Origin: Flavobacterium silvisoli | Lineage (GTDB): Bacteria > Bacteroidota > Bacteroidia > Flavobacteriales > Flavobacteriaceae | DNA: 64,000 nt | NCBI RefSeq assembly: GCF_004329815.1 | Contig: NZ_SJPE01000003.1 | Coordinates: forward strand, 62,001-126,000 | Reading direction: 5' to 3' | Shown here: in pieces, positions 35,971 to 51,900 of the stretch | Layout: each line of letters opens with the position of its first letter | Numbering within the stretch: the stretch's first letter is position 1 | Program-made: the position numbers and the translations under genes | The notes under the pieces: model-generated | What the model was told of the DNA's origin: nothing | The model's input: the letters and a program-made list of their open reading frames with translations, nothing else | The model's database searches: none

Positions 35971-36740
35971 ATGTTGAATAAACTCCTCCTTACTCTCAGT
36001 TTTCTTTTATTCGGCAAATTAATCGCTCAGGAAAATACGTTCACTAAACAAGTCAGTACCTTCACGCTCGAAGCACCTCAACTGAAAATAATCCAAAAAT
36101 TTGGGTATACCTACCCAAAGACTACACAGCTTCAACTAAAAAATACCCAGTCATTTATATGCACGACGGACAAAATTTGTTTCGTCAAAATCGTGAAACT
36201 CTTTCCGGATGGACTATAGATGAGGCTCTGAACGATATCAATGCTCAAGTCATTGTCATCGGGATTGAAAGCGATACAAATCAACAATACGGTAAGAACA
36301 AAACAGATGAGTATTTGGCTTTTATTGTTGAAATGCTGAAACCTAAAATAGATGCAACTTACCGCACTAAAACCAACGCTCACAATACCTGTATCATGGG
36401 AAGTTCCCTTGGTGGAGCGGTATCTTTTTATGCTGCTTTGAAATATCCCGAAGTGTTTGGCAAAGTGGGATGTTTCTTCCCTGCTTTTGGATTCAATCGA
36501 GCTGAACTATTGGTACTGTTGGCAAAAACAGAAACGTTTAAAGCCAAAGTCTATTTCCTGTGTGGTGACCGTGAAAATAACCCCGAGATGCTTTCCGATA
36601 TAACATTGGTCGAGCATTGGGTAAATACCAAGCGCTGCGAGTGTAAAAAACTAAATAAAAAAGTAATTGTCAAAGGCGGACAGCAAGACGAAGAATTGTG
36701 GCGTGAGAGTTTTAAAAAGGCGTATCTTTGGCTGTTTTAA
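35971..36740 (+). pseudogene. Secreted alpha/beta-hydrolase (esterase D-like), broken by a one-base frameshift
   Basis: Frame one gives a signal peptide (MLNKLLLTLSFLLFGKLIAQ) and continues to about KIIQK, then becomes nonsense and stops at 36219. The expected esterase sequence IWVYLPKDYTASTKKYPVIY continues without break into MHDGQNLF in the frame that is open to 36740. The switch is at the A5 tract 36095-36099; one more A would restore a 256-residue protein. Family features are GSSLGG with the nucleophile Ser, and CGDRENNPE. Either the gene is disrupted or phase-variable, or there is a sequencing error in the A tract. Confidence 0.88.
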
Positions 36741-36788
36741 ATTACGAATTACGAATTACGAATTACGAATTACGAATTACGAATTACA
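36741..36788 (+). repeat. Tandem heptamer (ATTACGA), about 6.9 copies
   Basis: Six exact ATTACGA units are followed by ATTACA, starting right at the stop of the esterase frame and ending 37 bases before the DUF1456 start. Such short-period arrays change length by slippage and here would alter the spacing of the upstream region of the next gene. Confidence 0.95.
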
Positions 36789-36825
36789 GATTTCAGGATT
36801 ATAGATTTTCAAATTTTCACCAATT

Positions 36826-37239
36826 ATGAATAACAACGATATATTTAAGAAACTCCGTGTGGCTTTGCAATTGCGCGACGACCAAATTGTAGAAATCATG
36901 CAATTGGTAGATTTCCGAATTTCGGCAGCGGAATTGGGGGCTTTTTTCAGAAACGCCGACCACCCGAAATACATGGATTGTGGTGATCAGGTATTGCGTA
37001 ATTTTTTAAATGGCCTAGTGATTCATTTGCGGGGAACAAAAGAAAACCCGAAAAAACCCATGGAGGTCATCCAACAGAACCAACAGGCTGTTCAGAAAAA
37101 CAATTCCGAAAAAAACAAAACAGCTCCCAAAACCGGCTTCAACAAAAAACCGGCTGCCGGTGTAAAACCCAAAAACAAGAAACCGGAGACCAAAATTCAG
37201 GCGGTAGAGAAAGTGAAATTCAAAAACGGAAAAAAATAG
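36826..37239 (+). CDS. DUF1456-family protein (YehS-like)
   Basis: The first 70 residues are a DUF1456 unit: NNDIFKKLRVALQLRDDQIV, ISAAELGAFFRNADHPKY and NFLNGLVIHLRG. The second half (about 75-137) is low-complexity Lys/Asn/Pro/Gln, basic and probably unordered, suggesting nucleic-acid contact. DUF1456 proteins usually have two such units; here the second is replaced by the basic tail. Function is unknown. Confidence 0.88.
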   Translation: MNNNDIFKKLRVALQLRDDQIVEIMQLVDFRISAAELGAFFRNADHPKYMDCGDQVLRNFLNGLVIHLRGTKENPKKPMEVIQQNQQAVQKNNSEKNKTAPKTGFNKKPAAGVKPKNKKPETKIQAVEKVKFKNGKK

Positions 37240-37303
37240 ACTTTTCTGTTAGGGTAAAAACCATACTAGTTGTTTTTTAATTCATTAACCAACAGAACAT
37301 CAT

Positions 37304-38269
37304 ATGAAATTGATTAACAACTTCTTATTTGCCGGTTTAGTGGCCATCACCTTTTCGTGCAGCAACGACCTCGAAAAAGAAAACAAAACCACCGCAAGAA
37401 CCGCTACCACCACAACAGCATTAGCTGTGACTCCGAAGAAATTTTTATTTGACGCAACCAAAGCCGAAACGGCCGGAAATGCCGACTGGGTCATTGATGC
37501 TGACACTTCACCCCAACGTTTTCCTACGCCGGCACAATCCAACATCACGGCCACTACAACCGAAAGTTTTTGGAAAGGCGGCTTGTCAGCCTGGGGAGTT
37601 GCTTTGGCCAAACTGGGACATACTGTTGAAACACTACCTTCCGGAACTCCCATTACTTATGGAAGTACAGGGGCTCAGGACTTAAAAAACTACGATGTAT
37701 TTGTAATAGATGAACCCAACATTCGATTTACAGCAGCAGAAAAAACAGCTATTCTCAATTTTGTGAAGAATGGCGGCGGTTTGTTCATGATCTCAGACCA
37801 TACGGTTTCTGATCGCAATAATGATGGTTGGGATTCTCCGGCGATTTGGAATGATTTGATGTCAAACAACACCGTTAAAACCAATCCATTTGGAATTACT
37901 ATAACATTAAATAATATTTCCGAAACCTCGACTAACAGATTAATTGCAACTACTAATCCTATTTTGAATGGTTCTCAGGGAACAGTTTCAAATCTGAAAT
38001 TTTCTAACGGCGCTACCATGTCGATAAACAAGACCGCTAATACTACGGTACAAGGCTTAATTTGGAGAGGTACTTCTACCCAAGGGACTTCCAACATTAT
38101 GTGTGCTTCGGCTACTTTTGGTACCGGAAGGGTCTTTGTCATTGGCGACAGTTCACCGGCCGATGATGGAACCGGTGCCACGGGCGACACGCTTTATCCG
38201 GGTTGGACCGAATTAGCCTCTCACGCTATTTTGCACATGAATGCCTCGCTTTGGTTGGCTAAATTGTAA
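37304..38269 (+). CDS. Lipoprotein with glutamine-amidotransferase-like (ThuA/DUF4350-like) fold
   Basis: The 321-residue protein has a lipobox (ITFSC), a Thr-rich linker (about 25-45), then a Rossmann-like domain: LKNYDVFVIDEPNIRFT, LNFVKNGGGLFMISDHTVSD and FGTGRVFVIGDSS. These strands fit a class I amidotransferase-like fold without the catalytic Cys. The acidic NNDGWDSPAIWND segment may bind calcium or sugar. The role is unknown; it is probably on the cell surface. Confidence 0.7.
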   Translation: MKLINNFLFAGLVAITFSCSNDLEKENKTTARTATTTTALAVTPKKFLFDATKAETAGNADWVIDADTSPQRFPTPAQSNITATTTESFWKGGLSAWGVALAKLGHTVETLPSGTPITYGSTGAQDLKNYDVFVIDEPNIRFTAAEKTAILNFVKNGGGLFMISDHTVSDRNNDGWDSPAIWNDLMSNNTVKTNPFGITITLNNISETSTNRLIATTNPILNGSQGTVSNLKFSNGATMSINKTANTTVQGLIWRGTSTQGTSNIMCASATFGTGRVFVIGDSSPADDGTGATGDTLYPGWTELASHAILHMNASLWLAKL

Positions 38270-38283
38270 TTTAAAATGATACA

Positions 38284-38312
38284 AATCCCTTCATCATCAG
38301 AAGGGATTTTTT
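38284..38312 (+). terminator. Terminator after the lipoprotein gene
   Basis: AATCCCTTC / GAAGGGATT with a 7-base loop and T-run. Confidence 0.85.
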
Positions 38313-38368
38313 ATTTGCAAAAAACAGATAACATGATATATATCAGATCTTTATCACTTTCCATAGTG

Positions 38369-38376
38369 TAACTTTG
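38369..38376 (+). promoter_or_regulatory. -7 box before the DUF2892 gene
   Basis: TAACTTTG fits TAnnTTTG and lies 28 bases before the ATG at 38405. Confidence 0.5.
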
Positions 38377-38404
38377 AAAATACTAACACTAAATAAAACA
38401 TATC

Positions 38405-38620
38405 ATGAGAAAAAACATGGGTTCTTTCGATCGGTTCATCAGAGTGCTGTTGGCAGCCGTAATGGCTTTTCTGTATTTTAACCACATCATTTCAGGAGTT
38501 CTTGGCTTGGTACTCTTGATTTTTGCCGGCGTATTTTTACTGACAAGTTTGGTCAGTTTTTGTCCGCTATATGTCCCTTTTCGCATCGATACCCGAAATG
38601 TCAAAAAAGGAATTAAATAG
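38405..38620 (+). CDS. DUF2892 small inner-membrane protein
   Basis: The 71-residue protein has the DUF2892 layout: a short N-terminus with MGSFDRFIRVLLA, two membrane helices (about 14-30 and 32-50), and SFCPLYVPFRIDT with one Cys. The family often accompanies rhodaneses (as in YgaP), but none is adjacent here. Single gene. Confidence 0.88.
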   Translation: MRKNMGSFDRFIRVLLAAVMAFLYFNHIISGVLGLVLLIFAGVFLLTSLVSFCPLYVPFRIDTRNVKKGIK

Positions 38621-38627
38621 TTAATTA

Positions 38628-38657
38628 AAAAATCCTGAGCTTTCACTCAGGATTTTT
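38628..38657. terminator. Bidirectional terminator between DUF2892 gene and folD
   Basis: AAAAATCCTGAG / CTCAGGATTTTT with a 6-base loop. Confidence 0.88.
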
Positions 38658-38659
38658 CG

Positions 38660-39547
38660 TTATTCAATTCTCAACTGTTTTTGTTCGCGTGCCAGCAGGG
38701 TATTTTTGAGCAGCATAGCAATCGTCATCGGACCAACTCCTCCGGGAACCGGAGTAATGAAAGAGGCTTTTTTAGAGACGTGTTCAAAATCAACATCACC
38801 GGTAATGTGGTAGCCTCTTGGGTCAGCTTCATCGGCAACGCGCGTAATTCCAACATCTATCACCACGGCATCGTCTTTAATCATTTCGGCTTTCAGATAA
38901 TTGGGAACACCTAAAGCGGTTATGATAATATCGGCCTGGGTGGTAATTTGTGCTATATTTTTGGTAAAACTGTGTGTCAGTGTCACGGTTGAATTGCCTG
39001 GAAACCCTTTTCTTCCCATCAGAATGCTCATTGGGCGGCCTACGATATGGCTTCTTCCAATCACTACCGTGTGTTTTCCTTGGGTTTCAACTCCGTAACG
39101 CTCTAATAATTCGAGAATTCCAAACGGTGTAGCCGGAATAAAAGTAGACATATCTAGCGCCATTTTTCCGAAATTTTCCGGGTGGAAACCATCCACATCT
39201 TTGCTGGGGTCTATAGACATCAGTATGTGCTGGGTATCAATTTGTTCGGGCAACGGCAATTGCACGATGAAGCCGTCGATGTCATCGTCTTCATTGAGTT
39301 CTTTGATTTTCTTGAGCAACTCTGTTTCGGAGGTTGTACTGGGCATTTTTATCAGTGTAGATTCAAAACCCACGCGTTCGCAAGCTTTAACTTTGCTGCT
39401 TACATAGGTAAGACTGGCACCGTCATTCCCGACAATAATGGCGGCTAAATGAGGTACTTTTTCGCCGTTGGCTTTCATCTTTTGAACTTCGGCTGCGATT
39501 TCGTTTTTAATGTCTTCCGACACTTTTTTTCCGTCTAGAATTTGCAT
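38660..39547 (-). CDS. folD: Bifunctional methylenetetrahydrofolate dehydrogenase/cyclohydrolase
   Basis: FolD interconverts 5,10-methylene-THF and 10-formyl-THF for one-carbon metabolism. The 295-residue protein has YVSSKVKACERVGFES with the catalytic Lys, GFIVQLPLPEQID, the Rossmann motif VVIGRSHIVGRPMSILM and PVPGGVGPMTIAML near the end. All signature elements are present. It is downstream of ffh on the same strand, with a weak hairpin between them. Confidence 0.96.
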   Translation of the reverse strand: MQILDGKKVSEDIKNEIAAEVQKMKANGEKVPHLAAIIVGNDGASLTYVSSKVKACERVGFESTLIKMPSTTSETELLKKIKELNEDDDIDGFIVQLPLPEQIDTQHILMSIDPSKDVDGFHPENFGKMALDMSTFIPATPFGILELLERYGVETQGKHTVVIGRSHIVGRPMSILMGRKGFPGNSTVTLTHSFTKNIAQITTQADIIITALGVPNYLKAEMIKDDAVVIDVGITRVADEADPRGYHITGDVDFEHVSKKASFITPVPGGVGPMTIAMLLKNTLLAREQKQLRIE

Positions 39548-39582
39548 TGTAGTTGTATTTGTGTGTTGTTTTGTTTAGCAAT

Positions 39583-39609
39583 AAAAAAGACGCGATTCCT
39601 CGCGCCTTC
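39583..39609 (-). terminator. Weak terminator after ffh
   Basis: On the minus strand AAGGCGCGA / TCGCGTCTT (one mismatch) with a GGAA loop runs into T6. It may let some transcription continue into folD. Confidence 0.6.
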
Positions 39610-39614
39610 ATACT

Positions 39615-40952
39615 TTATCTCATGCCTTTCATGCCGCCCATCATGCGCATCAGGTTCTTACCTCCACCACCTTGCATCATTTTCATCATTTTGCTCATTT
39701 GGTCAAATTGTTTCAGTAATTGGTTAACCTGCTCTATTTTGGTTCCGGAACCTTTAGCGATTCTGATTTTTCTTTTGGCATCTATAATGGCCGGTTTTGT
39801 TCTTTCTTTAGGAGTCATCGAGTGAATGATGGCTTCGATATGTTTGAACGCATCGTCTTCAATTTCTACATCTTTCAATGCTTTTCCGGCTCCGGGTATC
39901 ATACCTACAAGGTCTTTCATGTTACCCATCTTTTTCACTTGCTGAATTTGCGCCAGGAAATCATCAAAACCAAACTCATTTTTGGCAATTTTCTTTTGGA
40001 TTTTGCGCGCTTCCTCTTCGTCGTATTGTTCCTGAGCCCTTTCTACTAATGAAACTACGTCTCCCATACCAAGAATACGGTCGGCCATACGCGATGGATA
40101 GAACACATCAATCGCTTCCATTTTTTCACCGGTACCGATGAATTTGATTGGTTTATCAACTACCGACTTGATGGAAATCGCAGCTCCACCACGGGTATCA
40201 CCATCTAATTTGGTTAAAATAACTCCGTCAAAATTTAAGCGGTCATTAAAAGCTTTAGCCGTATTCACCGCATCCTGTCCGGTCATGGAGTCAACCACAA
40301 ACAAGGTTTCCTGTGGTTTGATGGCGGCATGCACATTGGCAATTTCGTTCATCATTTCTTCATCGATAGCCAAACGACCGGCGGTATCGACAATCACCAC
40401 ATTATAGCCGTTTGATTTGGCGTGTTGGATGGCATTTAACGCGATTTGAACGGCATTTTTATTTTCGGGTTCCGAGTATACTTCTACTCCGATTTGATCG
40501 CCTACTACGTGCAACTGATTAATAGCTGCCGGACGGTAAATATCACAAGCTACCAAAAGTGGTTTTTTGCTTTTTTTGGTTTTCAAGTAATTGGCCAATT
40601 TTCCGGAGAAAGTAGTTTTACCCGAACCTTGTAACCCTGACATCAAAATCACAGCAGGTGAACCGGTTAAATTGATTCCGGTAGCTTCACCTCCCATTAA
40701 TTCGGTCAGTTCATCTTTTACAATTTTCACCATCAACTGCCCCGGTTGCAATGTAGTCAATACATTTTGACCTATGGCTTTGTCTTTAACTCTAGTGGTA
40801 AAATCTTTGGCAATTTTAAAGTTAACATCGGCATCAAGCAAGGCGCGACGCACTTCTTTGAGTGTTTCGGCTACGTTAACCTCGGTTATTTTCCCGTGTC
40901 CTTTAAGGATGTGTAATGCTTTATCTAGTTTATCACTTAAATTATTGAACAT
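39615..40952 (-). CDS. ffh: Signal recognition particle GTPase
   Basis: Ffh binds signal sequences on nascent chains and 4.5S RNA and delivers them to FtsY. The 445-residue protein has the N domain (about 1-90), the G domain with GLQGSGKT (106-113), ACDIYRPAAINQL, DTAGRLAIDEE and TKLDGDTRGG, and a Met-rich M domain ending GGGKNLMRMMGGMKG. The length is normal. Confidence 0.97.
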   Translation of the reverse strand: MFNNLSDKLDKALHILKGHGKITEVNVAETLKEVRRALLDADVNFKIAKDFTTRVKDKAIGQNVLTTLQPGQLMVKIVKDELTELMGGEATGINLTGSPAVILMSGLQGSGKTTFSGKLANYLKTKKSKKPLLVACDIYRPAAINQLHVVGDQIGVEVYSEPENKNAVQIALNAIQHAKSNGYNVVIVDTAGRLAIDEEMMNEIANVHAAIKPQETLFVVDSMTGQDAVNTAKAFNDRLNFDGVILTKLDGDTRGGAAISIKSVVDKPIKFIGTGEKMEAIDVFYPSRMADRILGMGDVVSLVERAQEQYDEEEARKIQKKIAKNEFGFDDFLAQIQQVKKMGNMKDLVGMIPGAGKALKDVEIEDDAFKHIEAIIHSMTPKERTKPAIIDAKRKIRIAKGSGTKIEQVNQLLKQFDQMSKMMKMMQGGGGKNLMRMMGGMKGMR

Positions 40953-41023
40953 AATAGCAAGCTTTGTTTTTTAATGAAGTGGCAAATTTAAGGATTTGAT
41001 TTTGAAGTTTTACAGGAAACCAA

Positions 41024-41056
41024 ATAAAAAAACCACTCGTTTTTAGCGAATGGTTT
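41024..41056 (-). terminator. Terminator of the divergent lipoprotein operon
   Basis: On the minus strand AAACCATTCG / CGAGTGGTTT with one mismatch, followed by T7. It lies about 35 bases after the stop at 41092. Confidence 0.75.
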
Positions 41057-41091
41057 AAAAAAAGTGATGCTCTTATTTTTTTCCTAATCGA

Positions 41092-41550
41092 TTAATTTTT
41101 GGTGAAAACCAAAACATCAGTTCCTCCATTACCACCACTAACATCGGTTAGAGAAATAGTAGTTGCAGTGTAAGTGGTGATGTGCCAATCATCGGTCAAT
41201 TCAAGAAAATCTGCCGGTGATGCAAAGGCAATGTTGAAATCCAAATCGTTGCTAGGGCTGTCGTCATTGCTGTCATCAGTAGTTACCAACCAAGTACCGG
41301 TATAAGTATTGGTTCCGTTGGAAGCTGTTAAGACATTGTTGTTGTCAAACGTGAAGTTATAACCGGTAAAATGATTGGTTTCATCTGTTCCCGAATCGAT
41401 GTAGCTGGTTACACGCCAAGTCCCTTGTTTGGCAGTATTGATGACAGGAGTCGGATCGGTGGATGATGCACTGCTGTCTGAACTGCACATAGAAGCTGTG
41501 TTCATAAAAAACACCATAGCTAAAGCCGGATAAATAAATAGTCTTTTCAT
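41092..41550 (-). CDS. Lipocalin-like lipoprotein, paralogous to the C-terminal domain of the 41767-42789 product
   Basis: The 152-residue protein has a lipobox ending at about Cys22 (ASMC) and a single beta-rich domain: GTWRVTSYIDSGTDETNHF, NFTFDNNNVL, YTGTW, a D/N-rich loop, LTDDWHITTYTATTISL and LVFTKN. The same order of motifs (GTWRVSY, NFTFNSN, YGDWD, LESNWRVLEVSSTFVRL, LSFTKN) ends the first protein of this operon, so the two are paralogues. It is presumably anchored in the outer membrane. It is the last gene of an operon next to an ECF sigma/FecR/TonB receptor set. Confidence 0.8.
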   Translation of the reverse strand: MKRLFIYPALAMVFFMNTASMCSSDSSASSTDPTPVINTAKQGTWRVTSYIDSGTDETNHFTGYNFTFDNNNVLTASNGTNTYTGTWLVTTDDSNDDSPSNDLDFNIAFASPADFLELTDDWHITTYTATTISLTDVSGGNGGTDVLVFTKN

Positions 41551-41572
41551 TGTTTTACGTTTTTATTGAGAG

Positions 41573-41740
41573 TTAATTGTTTAAAAATTGAAGGACGAAA
41601 AAAGCAACCATAAAAATCAAAACCCATATCAGTATCTGATTGAAAAAATAATTAATTCTGGTTTTGTCCAGTGTAGTCATGTCTAGTCTTGTATCTCTAA
41701 ATCCCTGTTGATTTAGAAACTTCTTATTGAAAATTTTCAT
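41573..41740 (-). CDS. Small one-TM protein (55 aa) between two paralogous lipoprotein genes
   Basis: An ATG frame of 55 codons fills the gap between the two lipoprotein genes, 26 bases after one and 22 before the other. The N-terminal 35 residues are polar and basic (MKIFNKKFLNQQGFRDTRLD, then TTLDKTRINYFFN). Residues about 36-53 form one membrane segment (ILIWVLIFMVAFFVLQFL). The positive-inside rule suggests the N-terminus is in the cytoplasm. I do not recognise a family. Good spacing and a full TM at the end argue for a real gene. Confidence 0.65.
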   Translation of the reverse strand: MKIFNKKFLNQQGFRDTRLDMTTLDKTRINYFFNQILIWVLIFMVAFFVLQFLNN

Positions 41741-41766
41741 GCCGGTAAAATCGTGATTAAAAGAGT

Positions 41767-42789
41767 CTAGTTTTTAGTAAAACTCAAATAGTAGTATTGC
41801 CCGCTGCTGCTGCTTTCGCTTTTGAGTCTGACGAAAGTACTACTTACTTCGAGCACTCTCCAGTTGGATTCTAAGTCTTCAAGAGTAGAACCGTCAAAAT
41901 GCAAATCCAACCTTTGATAACCATACTCATCATGAACATCCCAATCGCCGTAAATCACAGTGCTGTTTTTGACAGCTTTAACCGTTTCATTACTGTTAAA
42001 AGTAAAATTATAATTGGCGTAATAATACGTTTCATCGTGGGTGTAATAGCAATAAGAGACACGCCAAGTTCCACTTGTCAAGACTTCTTCTACCTCCAGA
42101 GGCATAGGACCGGTTGTGCACTCAAATACTGCATTGTCTATAGCATCCTCAAGTTGACTATTGGAGGTAACCGTAATCACAGAAGAACTGTTTGTTTTTT
42201 TGAGTGATAACGGGTATACAATTCCAACTATTTCAGTGGCAGTCAAATCATGAATAAAATCATAGAGTTGTGCATCACTGGTTACCGTTACTGAACCTGC
42301 TAACTGATTATTGGTATTGTACTTATTGATGGTAAAAGGATACTGAAAATTGATACAGTCAATTTCGTGGTAATTACTGTCATCACCCATGGCCGCCAAA
42401 ATTGCATTGTATTCGGTTTCACTGTTTACTAAAACTTCCTGATGGTCGGGATAAACCAGCGTTATAGGGAACTGAAAATGAACCACATCGTCTCCTGCAT
42501 AATTGTCTTTGTAACTTTGAACCGTTGGGTAAAGAGCGCTGCTGTTTACATAACAATATTGGGAGTTAACCGTTACATGAACCGGTAATTTCACGCTGAA
42601 GTTACTGGTATTATCAAGTACGTTATCACAAGTAGTTTCAAATTGTGAAACTCTCGAAATTAAAGATGATATTGCAGAAGATTTACCAAAACTATTGGCT
42701 GCACTTTGTTTAACGCTTTCCTCTTCGTCCTGACAAGAGGCGAAAGACAAAGCTACCAGAGCAAAAACAAACCAAATATAATTTCTCAT
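41767..42789 (-). CDS. Lipoprotein with C-terminal lipocalin-like domain, first gene of an ECF-linked operon
   Basis: The 340-residue protein has a lipobox ending at Cys19 (SFASC) and an acidic start (QDEEESV). The middle (about 50-230) has repeated beta segments: FSVKLPVHVTVNSQYC, HFQFPITLVYPDHQEV, NFQYPFTINKYNTN and GIVYPLSLKKTNSS, each roughly followed by a residue run like VNSETEYNAI or VTSDAQLYDFI. Three or four copies of one unit are thus visible. The C-terminal 100 residues match the smaller lipoprotein of the operon. It is divergent from the sigma gene and preceded by the shared promoter-like element. Confidence 0.78.
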   Translation of the reverse strand: MRNYIWFVFALVALSFASCQDEEESVKQSAANSFGKSSAISSLISRVSQFETTCDNVLDNTSNFSVKLPVHVTVNSQYCYVNSSALYPTVQSYKDNYAGDDVVHFQFPITLVYPDHQEVLVNSETEYNAILAAMGDDSNYHEIDCINFQYPFTINKYNTNNQLAGSVTVTSDAQLYDFIHDLTATEIVGIVYPLSLKKTNSSSVITVTSNSQLEDAIDNAVFECTTGPMPLEVEEVLTSGTWRVSYCYYTHDETYYYANYNFTFNSNETVKAVKNSTVIYGDWDVHDEYGYQRLDLHFDGSTLEDLESNWRVLEVSSTFVRLKSESSSSGQYYYLSFTKN

Positions 42790-42809
42790 AATTGTTACTT
42801 CAATTCAAA

Positions 42810-42840
42810 GGTTAAACAAAGTTGCAATAAAAAACCCTAC
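42810..42840 (-). promoter_or_regulatory. Candidate ECF promoter of the lipoprotein operon
   Basis: Minus strand: GTAGGGTTTTTTA, 9 bases, TGTTTAACC, ending 20 bases before the ATG at 42789. Every base of both boxes and the spacing are the same as at 43410-43440 before fecR. It lies in the intergenic region shared with the sigma gene. Confidence 0.75.
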
Positions 42841-42891
42841 TTTCGAAAAAAATTTTATATTTAAACCTTCAAACAATCGATATAAATTAAA

Positions 42892-43413
42892 ATGGAGCAC
42901 ACCGATTCTAATGGTATTTGTGAAGAATTAGTTTTTTCTCGTTTTTTCAAAGCCAACGTAAAATCCCTGCGCAATTATCTCTACTTCAAATTTGGCAATG
43001 AAGAAAAAGCCAACGACATCACTCAGGAATCTTTCATAAAATTATGGGAGAACTGTAAAAATGTTCCGTTGGAAAAAGCCAAATCCTATATATATACGAT
43101 TGCCAACAATGCCTCGCTGAATGAAATTGCCCATCAAAAAGTAGTTTTAAAATATGCGCAGAGTCAAACTCAAAAAGACAGAACCAATTTAAATCCAGAG
43201 TTCCTGATTGAAGAAGAACAATTTAAACAAAAACTCGAAAAAGCCATAGACAGCCTGACCGAGGCCCAGAGAACAGCTTTTCTTTTGCATCGGATTGAAG
43301 GAAAAAAATATCATGAGATTGCCGTTATTTTAGACATCAGTGTCAAAGCGGTTGAGAAAAGAATACACGGAGCACTGATCACATTACGAACCGAAATAGA
43401 ACAGTTCAAGTAG
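42892..43413 (+). CDS. ECF RNA polymerase sigma factor (FecI-like)
   Basis: The 173-residue protein has sigma region 2 (FFKANVKSLRNYLYFKFG, ANDITQESFIKLWEN, AKSYIYTIANN) and region 4 (LTEAQRTAFLLHRIEGKKYH, EIAVILDISVKAVEKRIHGA). It should be held inactive by the FecR-like protein encoded next and released when the STN-domain receptor binds its ligand. The two promoter-like elements at 42810 and 43410 are the likely targets. Confidence 0.94.
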   Translation: MEHTDSNGICEELVFSRFFKANVKSLRNYLYFKFGNEEKANDITQESFIKLWENCKNVPLEKAKSYIYTIANNASLNEIAHQKVVLKYAQSQTQKDRTNLNPEFLIEEEQFKQKLEKAIDSLTEAQRTAFLLHRIEGKKYHEIAVILDISVKAVEKRIHGALITLRTEIEQFK

Positions 43414-43440
43414 GGTTTTTTACTTACGGACTGTTTAACC
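43410..43440 (+). promoter_or_regulatory. Candidate ECF promoter of fecR and the TonB receptor
   Basis: GTAGGGTTTTTTA (43410-43422), 9 bases, TGTTTAACC (43432-43440), overlapping the stop codon of the sigma gene. It is identical in both boxes and in spacing to the element on the other strand at 42810-42840. Because the sigma stop overlaps it, fecR and the receptor could be transcribed separately from the sigma gene. Confidence 0.75.
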
Positions 43441-43456
43441 AAACATAATGAATACA

Positions 43457-44356
43457 ATGGAAGAAAAATACGAATTAGCCAAATGGCTGGCAGGAGAAAT
43501 GACCGAAGCGGAATTACAAGCGTTTCAAAACACTCCCGACTATGCTACTTACGTCAAAATTGCGGACTATTCAAGTCAGTTGAAAGCCCCTGATTTTGAC
43601 AGCGATTTGTTGTATCAAAACACCCTCTCTAAAGCTCAAAAAGAACCTAAGGTAATTCCGCTATACCAATCTAAATGGATGAAAATTGCTGCCGTTTTTG
43701 TGGTACTATTAGGGTTGACTTTCTTTGTAAAAACGACTTCAACTTCAACAGAAATTGCCGAAAACGGAAAGAAAACCAGTTTTGCACTACCTGATCATTC
43801 TCAAATCGTGTTAAACAGCGGTTCTGAAATTGAATACAAAAAATGGAATTGGGACAACAACCGAACCCTGCACTTAAAAGGAGAAGCTTATTTTAAAGTC
43901 GCTCACGGCAAAAAATTTGAGGTAAGCACTCAACTGGGAACCGTGACCGTACTCGGAACTCAATTCAACGTAAAAGCGCGCGACAATCGCTTTGATGTGA
44001 CCTGTTATGAAGGTCGTGTAAAAGTAGTACACAATAATCACGAAGTAATCATCACAAAAGGTACTTCGGTGACATTTGATGCTGATACTTTTGAACAACA
44101 GACCGTTCAAAACACAAAACCAGAGTGGACTGTCAACCAAATTGTTTTCAAAAAAGAAAAACTGCAACGCATTTTAAATGAGTTACAGAGGCAATACAAC
44201 TGTGAAATCGTATTAAACGCCAACGAAAATTTACAGCTTTTCTCAGGAACACTGCCCGCTGACAATTTAAAAACAGCTTTACAGATAGTTTCTTCCACAT
44301 ATCATTTAAAAATCTCTAAATTTGAAACTACAAAAGTTATTTTAGAAGATTTTTAA
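43457..44356 (+). CDS. FecR-family anti-sigma factor
   Basis: The protein has a cytoplasmic N-terminus (EEKYELAKWLAGEMTEAEL), one TM at about 75-92 (MKIAAVFVVLLGLTFFV), a periplasmic FecR domain (KTSFALPDHSQIVLNSGSEI, LKGEAYFKVAHGKKFEVST) and a C-terminal DUF4974-like domain (FKKEKLQRILNELQRQYNCE). The ATG at 43457 is preferred because the ATG at 43448 would leave almost no leader after the upstream element; 43448 remains possible. The stop overlaps the receptor start as TAATG. It should pass the receptor's signal to the sigma factor. Confidence 0.93.
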   Translation: MEEKYELAKWLAGEMTEAELQAFQNTPDYATYVKIADYSSQLKAPDFDSDLLYQNTLSKAQKEPKVIPLYQSKWMKIAAVFVVLLGLTFFVKTTSTSTEIAENGKKTSFALPDHSQIVLNSGSEIEYKKWNWDNNRTLHLKGEAYFKVAHGKKFEVSTQLGTVTVLGTQFNVKARDNRFDVTCYEGRVKVVHNNHEVIITKGTSVTFDADTFEQQTVQNTKPEWTVNQIVFKKEKLQRILNELQRQYNCEIVLNANENLQLFSGTLPADNLKTALQIVSSTYHLKISKFETTKVILEDF

Positions 44357-46878
44357 TGTTAAACCCAAACAGACTGTTTTTTGTACTGTCACTGTTTCTC
44401 TCCTTGTTTGCAGCTCAGGCTCAGGAAGGTCAGAATGCTGTGGCTTTAAAAACTGTTTTAGATCAGATAAGCGATCAACACAATGTAAAATTCAATTACA
44501 TTGATTCAGAACTCATCATCTATAAAATAATTCCGCCCAAAGAATCGGTTTCTCTGACTGAGAAGATAAGTTACATCCAATCTAAAACCGGCTTTAAAAT
44601 AAAACAGATTAGTGACAACTATTATTCTGTCGTTAATAACAGGCACTTAGACAAACCACTTTGCGGCTACTTATTTGATGAAAATACCGGACTGGCTGTT
44701 GAAAACGCGAAAATCACTATTTCAGAAACTTCCACTCAAACACTTTCAAATGAAAAAGGTTATTTTGAATTGCCATTGGTTTCGCCAAACACGATTGAAA
44801 TAACCCATTTGAGTTTTGAAAAAAAACAACTAAGTCCGATAGATTTATACGTATCCGATTGTCCTAAAATCAAACTGACCGCTGTGGCGCAACAGCTGAA
44901 TGAAGTCATAGCCATGCGCTACCTAACCACAGGAATTTATAAAAAAAATGACGGAAGTCTCGAAATAAAGCCTACAAAATTCGGTATCTTACCGGGTTTG
45001 ATTGAGCCCGATGTGCTACAAACCATGCAACAAATTCCGGGGATTTCATCGGTTGACGAAACGGTTTCCAACATCAATGTACGAGGTGGTACGCACGATC
45101 AGAATCTTTTTCTTTGGAATGGCATCCGCATGTTTCAAACCGGCCATTTCTTCGGATTAATTTCGGCTTTTAACCCTTCTTTGGCACAAACAATATCAGT
45201 AACCAAAAACGGAAGTTCAGCTTTTTACGGAGAAAGCGTTTCGAGTTTGATTGACATTACATCACATACAAAAGCTATTTCCAAAAGCCGATCGAGCATC
45301 AGTTCTAATTTGATTAGTGCTGAATTTTATACCAAAATTAAAACCTCAGAAAAAGCCAATATCATACTCTCGGGCAGGCGTTCACTCACTGACTTTTTTG
45401 CCTCGCCTACTTATAAAAATTACAGAGACAAAGTGTTTCAGAATACGGTAGTTACCAATCTGGACAATAATCAAACGGTAAATTTTAAAACTGATGAAGC
45501 TTTTTATTTTTATGATTTTACCGGTCAATACCAACAAAGAATAGGTTCAAAACATGAACTTACCGCTGATGCCATAGTCATACGAAACTCGCTTTTCATT
45601 AATCAATTTACTGCCAATGCCAGCAAAAACAGTGATTTGGCACAAGAAACTTTGGGTAGTAGCCTGCATTGGAAAACCAACTGGAATAAGAGGAACAGTT
45701 CCGAACTAGAATTATACAGTTCTAAATACACTTTGGTTTCTAAAAATGAATCGATAGAAAACAATCAGATTTTGAAGCAGGAAAACAGTGTGTTGGATTT
45801 GGGTTTTCAATTCAAAAATTCAAATGTCATTTCAAAAAAAATAACTGTAAATCAAGGGTATCAGTTTAACGAAACCGGGGTTACCAACAGTGATGAAATC
45901 AACTCGCCGTTTTTTTCCCGAAAAAGCATCAATGTATTATTGACCCATGCCTTAATTGCAGAAGGAATTTTTGAAAACGAAAACAAAAAAACATTTCTGA
46001 AAGTTGGTGTTCGTGGCAATTATTTTGCTAAATTCAGAAAAACGTTGATTGAACCGCGTCTGCAATTCAATCAGGCTTTAAATCCTAATTTACGTCTTGA
46101 AATTTTGGGTGAACAAAAAAGCCAAACGCTTTCACAAGTAATCGATTTACAGCAGGATTTTTTAGGCATCGAAAAACGCCGTTGGACACAAGCAAACGAC
46201 AACACTATCCCAATTCAAAAGAGCCAACAGTTATCGTTGGGTTTTAGTTATACCAAACACAACTGGTTGATTACTTTGGACAATTTCTACAAAAAAATTA
46301 CCGGAATTACCACGAGTAGTCAGGGTTTTCAAAATCAGTTTGAGTTTGTAAAATCAAGCGGTTCCTATGAAGTTTTGGGTTCTGAATTTTTGATTCAAAA
46401 GAATTTCGGGCGTTTTTATTCCTGGTTGAGTTACAGCTATAACGACAATAAATACTTTTTCAAATCGCTTACACCACCTGAATTTTACAATAACTTCGAA
46501 TTGAAACACTGCATTTCCTGGGCGGGAATTTACGAATGGAACAGTGTAAAATTGGCACTGGGCTGTAAATGGCATACCGGAAAACCCATAACAACTCCGG
46601 CTTCGACTACAGTTGACAATAATAATTCTATTAGTTACAACTCGCCTAACAATGCCAAATTGGATGATTTTTTTCAGATGAATTTTTCTGCTTCCAAAGA
46701 ATGGAAATTAGCAGAAAAGATGGCTTTACAAACCAATGTTTCCGTTTTGAATGTTTTAAACACACAAAACAGCATCAATAGATTTTACCGCGTAAACACT
46801 GCCAATAATACCGTGGAAAGCGTCAATACCTATGCGCTTGATTTGACTCCGAATATAAATGTTAAGCTGAGTTTTTAG
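44356..46878 (+). CDS. STN-domain TonB-dependent receptor (FecA-like transducer)
   Basis: The 840-residue protein has a signal peptide (LFFVLSLFLSLFAAQAQ), an STN domain at about 25-95 (VALKTVLDQISDQHNVKFNY) that contacts FecR in the periplasm, a carboxypeptidase-regulatory-like domain (about 100-175), a plug (INVRGGTHDQNLFLWNGIRM) and a barrel ending NINVKLSF. This order is that of signal-transducing receptors, so uptake of its ligand would induce this locus. The ligand is unknown. Confidence 0.94.
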   Translation: MLNPNRLFFVLSLFLSLFAAQAQEGQNAVALKTVLDQISDQHNVKFNYIDSELIIYKIIPPKESVSLTEKISYIQSKTGFKIKQISDNYYSVVNNRHLDKPLCGYLFDENTGLAVENAKITISETSTQTLSNEKGYFELPLVSPNTIEITHLSFEKKQLSPIDLYVSDCPKIKLTAVAQQLNEVIAMRYLTTGIYKKNDGSLEIKPTKFGILPGLIEPDVLQTMQQIPGISSVDETVSNINVRGGTHDQNLFLWNGIRMFQTGHFFGLISAFNPSLAQTISVTKNGSSAFYGESVSSLIDITSHTKAISKSRSSISSNLISAEFYTKIKTSEKANIILSGRRSLTDFFASPTYKNYRDKVFQNTVVTNLDNNQTVNFKTDEAFYFYDFTGQYQQRIGSKHELTADAIVIRNSLFINQFTANASKNSDLAQETLGSSLHWKTNWNKRNSSELELYSSKYTLVSKNESIENNQILKQENSVLDLGFQFKNSNVISKKITVNQGYQFNETGVTNSDEINSPFFSRKSINVLLTHALIAEGIFENENKKTFLKVGVRGNYFAKFRKTLIEPRLQFNQALNPNLRLEILGEQKSQTLSQVIDLQQDFLGIEKRRWTQANDNTIPIQKSQQLSLGFSYTKHNWLITLDNFYKKITGITTSSQGFQNQFEFVKSSGSYEVLGSEFLIQKNFGRFYSWLSYSYNDNKYFFKSLTPPEFYNNFELKHCISWAGIYEWNSVKLALGCKWHTGKPITTPASTTVDNNNSISYNSPNNAKLDDFFQMNFSASKEWKLAEKMALQTNVSVLNVLNTQNSINRFYRVNTANNTVESVNTYALDLTPNINVKLSF

Positions 46879-46880
46879 CA

Positions 46881-46908
46881 TAAAAAAAAGGTTGGCAAAA
46901 CCAACCTT
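46881..46908. terminator. Terminator between the receptor gene and argS
   Basis: AAGGTTGG / CCAACCTT with a 5-base loop. The T8 tail is on the minus strand, so it mainly serves argS. Confidence 0.8.
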
Positions 46909-46929
46909 GTATCAACTCTTTTCATCATT

Positions 46930-48708
46930 TTACATGCGTTCAGGAACTTCAATTCCTAATAACCCGAAAGCTGACTTTATCGTTTCTCCCACTTTTTTGG
47001 AAAGTTGAACCCTGAATATTTTCTTGGTGGCATCTTCTTCTCCCAAAATTGAAACCGATTGGTAGAACGAATTGTATTCTTTGACCAAATCATAGGTATA
47101 ATTGGCAATAAGAGCCGGACTGTGATTGTGTGCGGCATTTTGAATCACATCTGGGAAAAGTTCGATTTGTTTCAACAACTCTTTCTCTTTTTCATGCAGA
47201 GCAATATCAACTACTGTAAAATTCAGATCGAAATCGGCTTTACGCAAAATCGATTGAATTCGGGCATAAGTATATTGAATAAACGGACCTGTATTTCCTG
47301 CAAAATCAACAGATTCTTCAGGATTAAACAAGATTTGTTTTTTGGGATCAACTTTTAAAATGTAGTATTTCAGTGCGCCCAGACCAATGGTTTTGAACAA
47401 GCGGGCTTTTTCAGCATCCGAATAACCCTCCAGTTTTCCCAGTTCAGTAGCTATGTTTCCGGCTGTGGTGGTCATTTCTTCCATCAAATCATCGGCATCA
47501 ACTACTGTTCCCTCTCTTGATTTCATTTTTCCGGAAGGCAATTCCACCATACCGTAAGAAAGGTGAAATAAACTTTCTGCCCAGTCAAAACCTAGTTTTT
47601 TCAAAATCAGGAATAAAACTTTAAAATGGTAATCCTGTTCGTTCCCTACGGTGTATACCATTCCGCCAACATCAGGAAAATCTTTTACCCTTTGAATGGC
47701 AGTGCCTATATCCTGAGTCATATAAACTGCGGTTCCGTCAGAACGCAACACAATTTTTCGGTCTAAACCGTCTTCGGTCAAATCAATCCAAACCGAACCG
47801 TCAGGATCTTTTTCAAAGATGCCTTTTTCGAGACCGAACTGTACCACTTCTTTTCCTAACAAATACGTGTTACTTTCGTAATAATAGCTGTCGAAATCAA
47901 CACCCAAATTTTTATACGTTTGAGCAAAACCATCGTAAACCCATTGATTCATGGTTTTCCAAAGCTCGATGACTTCGGGCTTTCCGGCTTCCCAATCCAG
48001 TAACATTTGTTGGGCTTCCAAAATAATTGGCGCTTGCTTTTTGGCTTCCTCTTCGGTTTTTCCTTCAGCCATTAAAGCATTGATTTCGGTCTTGTATGCT
48101 TTATCGAATTCAACATAAAAATTCCCAACCAATTTGTCGCCTTTTAAACCGGTAGATTCGGGAGTTTGTCCGTTACCGAATTTTTGCCAGGCCAACATCG
48201 ATTTACAAATATGTATGCCTCTATCGTTGATAATCTGGGTTTTGTATACTTTCTTTCCGGATGCTTTGATGATTTCGGCTACCGAATATCCCAATAAATT
48301 ATTGCGGACATGGCCGAGGTGGAGCGGTTTGTTAGTATTGGGTGAAGAATATTCAACCATAACGGCTTTATCATTTGGTGAAGCCGTTACGTAACCAAAT
48401 TGTTCGTTACCTTTAATATCATTGAAAAAAGTAAGGTAGTAACTGTCGGAAACCACGATATTCAAAAAGCCTGAAACCACATTAAAGCGACTCACTTCAG
48501 TAACATTCTGTACTAAATAATCACCGATTTTAGTTCCGATTTCGATCGGATTTCCTTTGATGATTTTTAGTAACGGAAAAATTACCATCGTGATATCGCC
48601 TTCAAAATCCTTGCGGGTCATTTGAAATTCAACTTTATCCGTTGTTACCTCAAACAATTGTTGAATAGCGATTTGTATGTGTTGTGTGAGCATTTCTGAG
48701 AGCTTCAT
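46930..48708 (-). CDS. argS: Arginyl-tRNA synthetase
   Basis: This class I enzyme charges tRNA-Arg. The 592-residue protein has the HIGH-type motif HLGH (130-133) in SSPNTNKPLHLGHVRNNLLG, the N-terminal Add-1 domain, the KMSK-equivalent KMKSREG, and a C-terminal DALR anticodon domain (about 470-592; YTYARIQSILRKA). All features are normal. Confidence 0.97.
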   Translation of the reverse strand: MKLSEMLTQHIQIAIQQLFEVTTDKVEFQMTRKDFEGDITMVIFPLLKIIKGNPIEIGTKIGDYLVQNVTEVSRFNVVSGFLNIVVSDSYYLTFFNDIKGNEQFGYVTASPNDKAVMVEYSSPNTNKPLHLGHVRNNLLGYSVAEIIKASGKKVYKTQIINDRGIHICKSMLAWQKFGNGQTPESTGLKGDKLVGNFYVEFDKAYKTEINALMAEGKTEEEAKKQAPIILEAQQMLLDWEAGKPEVIELWKTMNQWVYDGFAQTYKNLGVDFDSYYYESNTYLLGKEVVQFGLEKGIFEKDPDGSVWIDLTEDGLDRKIVLRSDGTAVYMTQDIGTAIQRVKDFPDVGGMVYTVGNEQDYHFKVLFLILKKLGFDWAESLFHLSYGMVELPSGKMKSREGTVVDADDLMEEMTTTAGNIATELGKLEGYSDAEKARLFKTIGLGALKYYILKVDPKKQILFNPEESVDFAGNTGPFIQYTYARIQSILRKADFDLNFTVVDIALHEKEKELLKQIELFPDVIQNAAHNHSPALIANYTYDLVKEYNSFYQSVSILGEEDATKKIFRVQLSKKVGETIKSAFGLLGIEVPERM

Positions 48709-48727
48709 GGTATTTCTTTTTGGTGGG

Positions 48728-48735
48728 CAAAGATA
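48728..48735 (-). promoter_or_regulatory. -7 box of the argS promoter
   Basis: Minus-strand TATCTTTG fits TAnnTTTG and lies 19 bases before the argS ATG, giving a short leader. Confidence 0.5.
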
Positions 48736-48906
48736 AACATTACTAAAGAAATTTTATATGCTAAACTCATTAATAAAAACATTCATTGAAAATTTATTTT
48801 TGTAAGTATTTTACTTTTTATTTGATTTTTTTTGTGCTTTTTATCGATTTTTTTTGCATTTAAACGATTTTATATTCAATATTTGCTACGTCAAAATCCC
48901 CGAGTC

Positions 48907-51900
48907 ATGAAAAAGATATTACTAGTAATCATTTTATTATTTACGATATTTGGTTTTTCGCAACCATTATCGGTGAGTACAACCAGTCATACGGTACCAC
49001 AATTGGTTAACGATGTACTTATTAACTCCCCTTGTGTATCGGCTACGAACATAACCTGGTCAACCGGATCAAACTTTGGTTCATCAAATGGAATTGGCTT
49101 TTTCCAAAATTCAAATCCAAACTTCCCAATGAACAGCGGTGTGGTGTTGAGTACCGGAAACGCTTTGAATGCAGCAGGCCCAAATACATCTTTGTTAAAT
49201 GACGGATCTGTTGCCTGGCCTGGAGACAGTAGTTTAGAAGCTACCTTGGCGGCATCAGGTATCCCGATGGTTTCAAAAAACGCAACTGTTTTAGAGTTCG
49301 ATTTTACACCTATTTCTCCTAATTTTAGTTTTGACTTTGTCTTTGCCTCAGAGGAATACGGTAATTATCAATGTCATTACTCGGATGCTTTTGCTTTTTT
49401 GTTGACCAATATGAATACCGGAGTGACCACAAATTTGGCGGTTGTGCCCAGCACAACTTTACCTATTTCAGTGGTTACCATCAGAGATTCTCAATATAAC
49501 TCTTCATGTCCTTCAACAAATGCTCAATATTTTGGCAGTTTCAACGGTGGGTCCGCAGCAGCTGGATCGGCTACTAATTTTAACGGTCAGACCAAATTAT
49601 TGACCGCAGCCGCCCCATTGATACCAAACGTACCTTATCACATCAAATTAGTTATTGCTGACCGATTGGATCCACAATCGGATTCGGCCATTTTTATATC
49701 TTCTGACAGTTTCAACATAGGTCAGGATGTATTAGGCCAAGATTTGACGATTGCAAACAATGCTGCCGTTTGTTTTGGCACAACCAAAACCTTGACAACT
49801 GGTTTAAGCACGGCTGACTATACATTTGTTTGGAAAAAAGACGGAGATGTTTTACCGTCAGAAACCAATTCGAGCTTAGTTATTAATCAACCGGGAACTT
49901 ACACAGTAACTTATACTAATTTGTCTAATTTTTGTCAACCGATTACTGACCATGTTGTGGTAGAATATTACCCGGAGATTGTTACAGCCAATCCTACGAC
50001 TATCTACCGTTGTGATTCGGGAGCGGCAACTTACAATTACAATCTGGATATAAATACACCAATTGTTAAAGCAGGTTTAGATGCTTCAGCCGTTGTTACT
50101 TATCATAGTTCACAATCAGATGCTGAAAATGGTATTAATCCGCTACCACTAGTATACAACAGTGCTAGTGGTCAAACTGTATATGTTAGAATCAAGCTAC
50201 CCACTACGGGATGTTATGTTGTTAAATCTTTTCAGCTAATGGTATCGCCCGGACCCGTGGCTAACCAACCGGCAGATTTTGTAAAATGTGCACGTTCACA
50301 AACCCAAAACACGGCAGTGTTCAATTTGACACAACAAAATGCCCAAATACTGAACGGACAACCTGCTTCGATTAACATCATAAGTTACTATACCTCACAG
50401 CTGGATGCGAACAACGGTACTAACCCGATTACTAACGTTTTAACCGGAGTGTATCCAAATACAACGATTTATGTTAGAGTTGAAAACGTGAGCGATCCAC
50501 AATGTTATAGTCTTACTCATTTCAATTTAGTGGTTACGCCTATACCTCCTGTGGATGATTTAGATGATGTGGTTGTATGTAGCAGCTATACTTTACCTCC
50601 ATTGGTAAACGGAAATTACTTTACTGCTCCAAACGGAAACGGAATTCCTTTATTTGCCGGTACCGAAATCATACAATCGCAAACCATTTACATATATAAC
50701 CAACCTGATGGCCCGGGTACTTGTGGTTCCAGCACTTCATTCAAAGTTAAAATTATTGATCCGTCCTCTTTATCACCTTCAAGTGTAACCCGATGTGGTA
50801 GTTATACTTTAACCAGTGCTCCTTATGGTCGTTATTATACTCAACCGGGAGGAATGGGAACAGTTATACCAACAGGGACCGTTTTTACATCCTCACAAGT
50901 AATTTACTATTACTATAAAACTGAAATCGCTCCGTTTTGTGAAATCGATACAGATTTAACCATCACTATACTTCCATTAGTGGAAGTGGGGGAAAGACCG
51001 GATGTTTTTGAATGTACATCCTACACCTTACCTCCCTTATCTATCGGAAACTATTATACCGGACAAAACGGTACAGGCACCTTATTACATGCCGGTGATG
51101 TTATCACAACCAGTCAAACTATTTACGTATATGCTTCCTCTAATGTAAGTACTACTTGTTCTGATGAGGATAGTTTTGATGTAATCATTGGTATGCCTCA
51201 ACCAAGCGATGTAAACCAATGTAACGGATATACATTACCAGCCTTACCAATAGGGAACTATTTTACAGGTCCAATGGGTACCGGAACCATCATTCCTGCG
51301 GGAACGGTTATCAACTCAAGCACAACCGTTTATATCTATGCTCCTACGACCAGTGGATTAAACAATTGTACAGAGAATATGCATTTCACATTAAACATAG
51401 CCCAACCTGAAGTTGATGTGTTGAGCGACGTTTCAGTATGTGAGTCATACACGCTCCCTGCTTTAAACCACGGAAGTTACCGCACTGGTGTTGACGGAAC
51501 CGGGGTAATCTTATATCCGGGCAACGTAATTGTTTCAACTCAAAAGATTTACATTTTTGAAAGATTAAATGCCACATGTTTCAACCAGTCAAGTTTTACA
51601 GTAACAATTAATCCGCTACCTAATATAGACTCACGTTCAGATATTGATATCTGTGACCAATATGTTCTATCAGCTTTGAATGTGGGAAGCTATTATACCG
51701 GTCCGGGTGGTACAGGAACTATGTTACCGGCAGGAACCGTGATTACTACATCTCAAAAAATTTATGTGTATGCAGTTTCCAATACAACACCTCCGTGTTC
51801 CATAGAAAACAGTTTCCAAATCAATATCTTTTCAACTTCTTCGGATGCTCCGGCAGATGTGACAGCTTGTGACAGTTACACTTTACCGGCATTAACTCCG

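Follow-up and report, generated by a model that had tools for sequence, protein, structure and literature searches.

FecI-like sigma factors are numerous in Bacteroidota. We analyzed a stretch of 64,000 nucleotides of Flavobacterium silvisoli (assembly GCF_004329815.1, contig NZ_SJPE01000003.1, positions 62,001-126,000), here called the window, whose positions are used for the coordinates below, and in it a gene for an extracytoplasmic function (ECF) sigma factor that is flanked on both sides by the same two-part, promoter-like element. One copy stands before a divergent lipoprotein operon and the other before fecR, the gene of an anti-sigma factor, which is followed by the gene of a TonB-dependent receptor. 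The features of the locus are:

41092..41550, minus strand: second lipoprotein, 152 amino acids (aa), META-like (PF03724 META at E 0.002, below the cut-off)
41573..41740, minus strand: small membrane protein, 55 aa (translated open reading frame, ORF)
41767..42789, minus strand: lipoprotein, 340 aa (no Pfam match at E 0.01; lipobox recognized by eye)
42810..42840, minus strand: putative divergent promoter element, GTAGGGT -35 box and TGTTTAA -10 box, before the lipoprotein operon (exact match)
42856..42863, plus strand: possible -7 box of housekeeping type for the sigma gene, TATATTTA, which differs from TAnnTTTG at one position (by eye)
42892..43413, plus strand: ECF sigma factor, 173 aa (Sigma70_r2 and Sigma70_r4_2 above Pfam cut-offs)
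43410..43440, plus strand: putative junction promoter element before fecR, whose GTAGGG carries the sigma stop codon TAG (exact match)
43448..44356, plus strand: FecR-type anti-sigma factor, alternative start 43457 (PF04773 FecR and PF16344 FecR_C above cut-offs)
44356..46878, plus strand: TonB-dependent outer-membrane receptor, 840 aa, start overlapping the fecR stop (Plug PF07715 above the cut-off)

The two elements of the window

The pattern GTAGGGTTTTTTA-N9-TGTTTAACC, where N is any base, is present twice in the window and points outward from the sigma gene, reading GTAGGGTTTTTTATTGCAACTTTGTTTAACC on the minus strand (42840-42810) and GTAGGGTTTTTTACTTACGGACTGTTTAACC on the plus strand (43410-43440). 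A first-pass annotation of this DNA had described identical boxes on both sides with nine differing inner bases; all 22 box positions and the spacing do agree, whereas eight of the inner bases differ and one is the same. Its view that this is not one copied block stands, with eight of nine inner bases different and flanks that proved unlike when compared. The elements also lie where it had placed them, before the lipoprotein gene and before fecR: TGTTTAA ends at 42812 in the minus element, with the lipoprotein start at 42789, and at 43438 in the plus element, with the fecR start at 43448 or 43457. The sigma stop codon (43411-43413) falls inside the plus element.

A pattern scan allowing up to 3 mismatches found only these two copies in the window, and 100 dinucleotide shuffles of the window gave zero matches. 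The genome-wide search proposed by the first-pass annotation (2.89 Mb, 39 contigs) added one further copy with 2 mismatches, while the backwards control pattern had no match in the whole genome. Rfam at gathering thresholds had no match in window positions 36000-50000.

A conserved core in related loci

One genome per species (84,980) was scanned for relatives of the sigma factor; 234 stretches encode one, and the best 80 of the 234 were kept, 77 of which carry record titles of Flavobacterium or Flavobacteriaceae. Two contigs titled as Bifidobacterium breve and Sphingobacterium thalpophilum metagenome-assembled genomes (L044 and L047) hold Flavobacterium-like loci, and their titles look wrong. 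The first-pass annotation had suggested comparing orthologous loci and had named loss of the boxes from relatives that keep the locus as the result that would speak against it; the core GTAGGG-N16-TGTT is found at the sigma/fecR junction in all 80 loci. On the divergent side a core lies within 260 bp upstream of the sigma gene, on the opposite strand, in 71/80. In total, there are 209 core matches in the 742,521 bases of the related loci and 0 in the same sequences reversed. A spacer of 16 accounts for 209 matches, while each other spacer from 8 to 24 gives 0-5.

Column frequencies were taken from distinct sites, 69 at the junction and 62 on the divergent side, which had been picked by the core, so that only columns outside it are informative: T stands at +6 in 89-95% and T, T, A follow TGTT in 72-93%, while the spacer of the core is AT-rich and variable. 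The full 22-base motif was rejected as the conserved unit, as its T-run and final CC are not kept; what the relatives share is GTAGGG-N16-TGTY, with the T, the TTA and an AT-rich stretch as weaker conserved parts. The junction box provides the sigma stop codon in 50 of the 80 loci; in the remaining 30 the box begins 5 to 8 bases downstream of that codon's first base. In 62 of the 80 loci a distance of 20-26 bases separates the end of the junction core from the fecR ATG that our script selected. This arrangement, a pair of conserved boxes with constant spacing ahead of start codons, is that of an ECF-type promoter.

Co-occurrence with the sigma gene

Among 101 genomes of the genus, 40 have a sigma factor of at least 59% identity to that of the window; the best identity is 49-52% in 10 and 31-32% in 2, whose sigma factors are distant relatives, and 49 have none (E 1e-15). 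The strict pattern GTAGGGT-N15-TGTTTNA is present in 38/40, 2/10, 0/2 and 7/49 of these groups, respectively, and its backwards control in 6/40, 2/10, 1/2 and 6/49. The two genomes missed by the strict pattern in the first group (G055 and G086) do possess the core at their junctions (L179 and L180), with altered neighboring letters.

In sigma-bearing genomes other than that of the window, 27 matches in 26 stretches were classed as separate from the sigma/fecR sites, although some are less than 10 kb from the sigma gene. Twenty-one of the 27 are outside ATG-started ORFs of at least 130 aa on either strand, compared with 1/8 in sigma-less genomes. The genes behind these 21 often encode lipoproteins or secreted proteins (DUF4382-like; ankyrin with DOMON and OB-fold; Rieske); some of the matches are followed by no sensible gene (L143, L149 and L155) and two by ordinary metabolic genes (L152 and L157).

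Two classes of putative promoter

A related group of sigma factors (49-52% identity) has GTAGGG-N16-TGTCTTA at the junction, and on the divergent side too in 6 of 7 fetched loci carrying it. This variant is found in 13/101 genus genomes (control 2/101), including nine of the ten with at best that sigma group. When 190 distinct sigma proteins (215 matches) were classed, with only T or C allowed at the fourth -10 base, the 125 loci with both sites were divided into 113 T/T and 12 C/C with 0 mixed, and one-sided loci into 21 with only T and 5 with only C.

It is known that the region 2.3 loop reads a -10 base in other ECF sigma factors. At residue 59, which belongs to the loop that follows helix 3 in region 2, D or E is found in 16/17 C-class sigma factors, 0/134 of the T class and 1/39 of those without sites. 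The 16 acidic sigma factors form one clade (node support 0.0), which makes this a single evolutionary change, and a related group of paralogues, the L127 group, has K59 and yet TGTC sites; the acidic residue was therefore rejected as the reader of C versus T. The C-class exception, L245 (G108 contig 49), has a non-acidic residue 59 and a single, divergent TGTC-type site, and its genome also has a C-class sigma factor, so cross-regulation in that genome is possible.

The genome of the window itself contains a second sigma-FecR-receptor system, L127 (contig C37:107500-118000; sigma identity 46%). GTAGGG-N16-TGTY is absent from both the junction and the divergent side of this system, and it was considered as a site-free control until a site, GTAGGG-N16-TGTCTAA, was found 17 bases before a lipoprotein gene (397 aa) that lies upstream of the sigma gene on the same strand. 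This lipoprotein is distantly related to that of the window, has Kazal-like stretches by eye and gives no Pfam match. In three of the four other loci of the group (L137, L138 and L140) a TGTC-type site also precedes a same-strand lipoprotein gene, at 17-31 bases across the group, while L139 has no such site. With TGTT at the system of the window and TGTC at L127, this one genome holds both classes.

Nine sigma paralogues (L240, L242, L247, L249, L251, L261, L263, L269 and L274) carry a loop of VTP, ISP, VSP or IPP type and show no GTAGGG site in the stretch searched. They are likely a sister group with another promoter.

Genes around the elements

By their domains, the predicted sigma factor, FecR and receptor belong to the cell-surface signaling family of the FecI type. 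The Pfam domain content of the sigma factor is regions 2 and 4 only, and its best NCBIfam match, Sig70_bacteroi1, is slightly below the cut-off. For the 340-aa lipoprotein 103 database proteins match, its own record included, and its C-terminal domain is related to the 152-aa lipoprotein (BLASTP 31% over 120 aa, E 5e-13). A homologue of the latter in L035 has its own site immediately before it. Proteins of 57-60 aa resembling the small membrane protein occupy the same place in L038, L040, L041 and L042.

Operons elsewhere in the genome

Targets in the window's own genome were chosen by position relative to genes and by homology to genes behind sites in relatives. A site on contig C37 precedes an operon (L126) for an OB-fold (tRNA_anti-like) protein, a DUF5777 barrel, a cytochrome c-like protein (CxxCH), a YceI protein and a DUF2271-like protein; the last has a type IX secretion system (T9SS) tail, and its DUF2271 score is 24.2 bits at a cut-off of 27.3. 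The same operon genes adjoin the sigma locus, with their own site, in L038 and L042, and in L040 as well, where no cytochrome ORF is listed. On contig C13 a site lies 152 bases before the gene of a 555-aa T9SS protein (L128). Homologues of this protein stand behind a site at the sigma locus in two cases, L076 and G034; among the 101 genus genomes, G034 is the only further one with a match at E 1e-60.

The orthologous redox operon was examined in 30 DUF5777 loci, out of 75 genomes with a match, searching up to about 1.1 kb upstream. A site was present in 10/16 sigma-bearing genomes, at no more than 400 bp in 6 of the 10, and in 0/14 sigma-less ones (Fisher 3e-4; 0.019 at the 400-bp limit), which indicates that the operon exists without the sigma gene, and then without the site.

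The flavinylation motif [ST]GA[ST] was seen in the DUF2271-like proteins of L126, L038, L040, L042, L318 and L320, of which only that of L126 was Pfam-scanned, the others being matched by eye; these four letters also occur in an unrelated ORF of L314. An apbE gene adjoins the DUF2271-like copy of the own genome (L126). Judged by eye from their N-termini, the proteins behind sites are mostly exported or membrane-anchored.

Two other kinds of match were noted. An intergenic core match on contig C12 (220009-220034, minus strand; L119) lies 174 bp before the gene of a 442-aa secreted-looking protein, which is a weak regulon candidate. Seven loci (L084, L086, L087, L088, L099, L105 and L107) have a third site, which follows the start of the sigma gene at a distance of about 4.1-4.3 kb, and the first gene after this site resembles a regulator of the HxlR family, confirmed by Pfam only for L084, whose best NCBIfam matches, below the cut-off, are the redox regulators RrpB/RrpA.

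The proposed circuit and its alternatives

We consider it highly probable, from comparison of sequences, that the window holds a pair of outward promoters for the ECF sigma factor whose gene they enclose. This sigma factor would switch on the FecR anti-sigma factor and TonB-dependent receptor on one side, the lipoprotein operon on the other and, as a prediction, unlinked operons for extracytoplasmic or T9SS-exported proteins. The suggestion of the first-pass annotation that one ECF regulon joins the anti-sigma factor, the receptor, the lipoproteins and the small membrane protein thereby gains support, as the core is present at both places, tracks the sigma gene and agrees in its -10 base; the regulon also seems to reach the unlinked operons. 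Conservation of the promoter is what suggests that the sigma factor would drive transcription of the receptor gene.

A site stands before fecR in 80/80 loci and before the sigma gene itself in 3/80 (L052, L056 and L067), lineages which may have added autoregulation. TAnnTTTG, the housekeeping -7 box according to passages of PMC9723704, occurs in the 90 bp before the sigma gene in 25/80 loci, compared with 2.5 expected from base-composition shuffles; 12 of the 25 are at -31, and many come from close relatives. The sigma gene would be placed under a housekeeping promoter and be transcribed constitutively. A signal at the receptor would pass to FecR, by which the sigma factor would be freed or activated, and on activation anti-sigma factor and receptor would be boosted, with the synthesis of FecR and receptor acting as negative feedback, as reported for HasI/HasS. 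The best reading of these sequences is a regulon of the FecI/FecR/receptor type with HasS-like wiring, in which anti-sigma factor and receptor, and not the sigma factor, are the probable targets.

The conserved boxes could also be two half-sites of a DNA-binding activator or repressor, with transcription left to the housekeeping sigma factor. A dimeric regulator would leave a conserved two-part motif as well, and some operons behind third sites start with a gene for an HxlR-type regulator. We regard this as improbable: visual comparison shows no inverted or direct repetition between the boxes, the presence of the site tracks the sigma gene, most junction cores (62/80) keep the short distance of 20-26 bases to the fecR ATG, and TAnnTTTG is at chance level at the junction (5/80 against 4.7). 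It is very improbable that the promoters belong to another sigma factor of the cell and that the neighboring one is a passenger. The genomes do hold many sigma-like candidates (5 to 38 at a first look, among the matches listed), and the TGTC site of L127 indicates that related sigma factors read related promoters, so that crosstalk could occur; the pattern nevertheless follows this particular sigma factor (38/40 against 7/49 genomes), the two sites of a locus agree in 125/125 cases, and within the same genome T is found at both sites of the window and C at that of the paralogue. Identity of 22/22 box positions within this genome would suit a duplicated block, a repeat or a functionless chance match, an explanation to which we give practically no weight, since the copies are unlike in their inner bases and flanks, no match is found in shuffles or reversed controls, and 80/80 relative loci keep the core at the same place while each of the two sites diverges on its own in T-run, spacer and flanks.

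Several observations weigh against promoters read by the neighboring sigma factor, or limit how far this reading extends. The related sequences are non-independent samples, and 9/80 loci are without a core within 260 bp on the divergent side. Neither site accompanies 39 of the 190 distinct sigma homologues, 32 of which show none anywhere in the stretch searched, and the site-less L240 (60%) is closer to the sigma factor of the window than the site-bearing L244 (49%); since some site-less homologues are nearer than site-bearers, a further sister group probably uses another promoter. In a survey of the family (199 genomes, nearly one per genus, 137 with a sigma homologue at E 1e-35), GTAGGG-N16-TGTYTTA was present in 86/199 genomes and its backwards control in 46/199, which means that sites beside sigma genes, and not totals, carry weight family-wide. 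The bare core has 12 matches in the own genome against 5 for the control, so lists made from the core only are noisy and its use as a genome-wide regulon finder was rejected. In six of the 16 sigma-bearing genomes the stretch of about 1.1 kb before the redox operon contains no site, although two of the six (G088 and G003) have one farther upstream, before an ankyrin gene, and L309 was counted as positive on a site 892 bases away whose link to the operon is tentative. An N-terminal signaling domain of the receptor is weakly supported: a profile search gave no match to it in the receptor of the window, and the orthologue in L113 has only a weak match to FecR_C (residues 29-90, E 0.013, below the cut-off).

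We tentatively propose, as a possibility rather than an expectation, that GTAGGGT-N15-TGTYTTA marks an ECF class of the whole Flavobacteriaceae, in which paralogues, even in one cell, are separated by one -10 base (T or C), each sigma factor governing its own anti-sigma factor, receptor and surface lipoproteins, and the T class also a surface set for flavin and cytochrome electron transfer. Cytochrome c, Rieske, DOMON, YceI and DUF2271 proteins behind sites suggest redox chemistry. Our most speculative proposal is that the output of the regulon may be a set of proteins for electron transfer at the cell surface (c-type cytochrome, predicted flavinylated DUF2271, Rieske, DOMON and YceI) answering a redox or metal signal. 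The consensus with its fixed spacing means that regulons of one ECF class can be proposed from sequence across the family, and the existence of a T and a C class allows the specificity of sigma paralogues for their promoters to be tested directly. The targets draw attention to redox proteins of the cell surface and to two lipoproteins that have no assigned function.

Comparison with known systems

In the titles, abstracts and passages searched we found no description of the two-box motif; subscription papers are mostly outside the coverage, and absence from print is not established. The letters GTAGGGT in a passage of PMC5399024 were rejected as an earlier report of the motif, as they are part of a primer for quantitative reverse transcription polymerase chain reaction.

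Among the closest known circuits is HasI/HasS/HasR of Serratia marcescens, which, in passages of PMC9249621, likewise consists of an ECF sigma factor, a FecR-like anti-sigma factor and a TonB-dependent receptor. HasI activates the genes of anti-sigma factor and receptor and not its own, which sets it apart from other iron-uptake sigma factors (PMC9249621), and the same layout is seen here in sequence, with the anti-sigma gene behind a site and the sigma gene not. The possible target of HasI in the -35 region is TTTACGGGTTT, compared with GTAGGGT here, and the has operon carries hemophore genes, while here lipoproteins and redox operons stand behind sites. FecI/FecR/FecA of Escherichia coli has the same three-protein architecture and a sigma gene that is not autoregulated; according to the same passages, however, fecIR is not sigma-dependent, whereas here fecR is behind a sigma-type promoter (PMC9249621).

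In Bacteroides, passages of PMC3878776 describe polysaccharide loci in which, as here, ECF sigma/anti-sigma pairs of Bacteroidota are coupled to TonB-dependent proteins, and call the prediction of ECF-controlled promoters challenging and in need of start-site data. The present locus differs from SusC/SusD polysaccharide loci in its two lipoproteins, for neither of which a SusD family was found in Pfam or NCBIfam at E 0.01.

The operons with DUF2271-like proteins resemble ApbE/DUF2271 flavinylation modules in the [ST]GA[ST] motif, the place where ApbE has been shown to flavinylate a DUF2271 protein (PMC8238504), and in the apbE gene beside the own-genome copy. They differ in the T9SS sorting tail (L126), in the DUF5777/cytochrome/YceI operon and in a DUF2271 score below the cut-off; the passages of PMC8238504 make no mention of control of such modules by an ECF sigma factor. 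SM6 of Flavobacterium psychrophilum is a motif of probable ECF promoters of T9SS genes in passages of PMC9723704. Like the elements described here, it represents a class of ECF promoters from flavobacteria with a sigma/anti-sigma pair nearby; in comparison with it, the class found here has the -10 box TGTYTTA (TGTT or TGTC) and the -35 box GTAGGGT.
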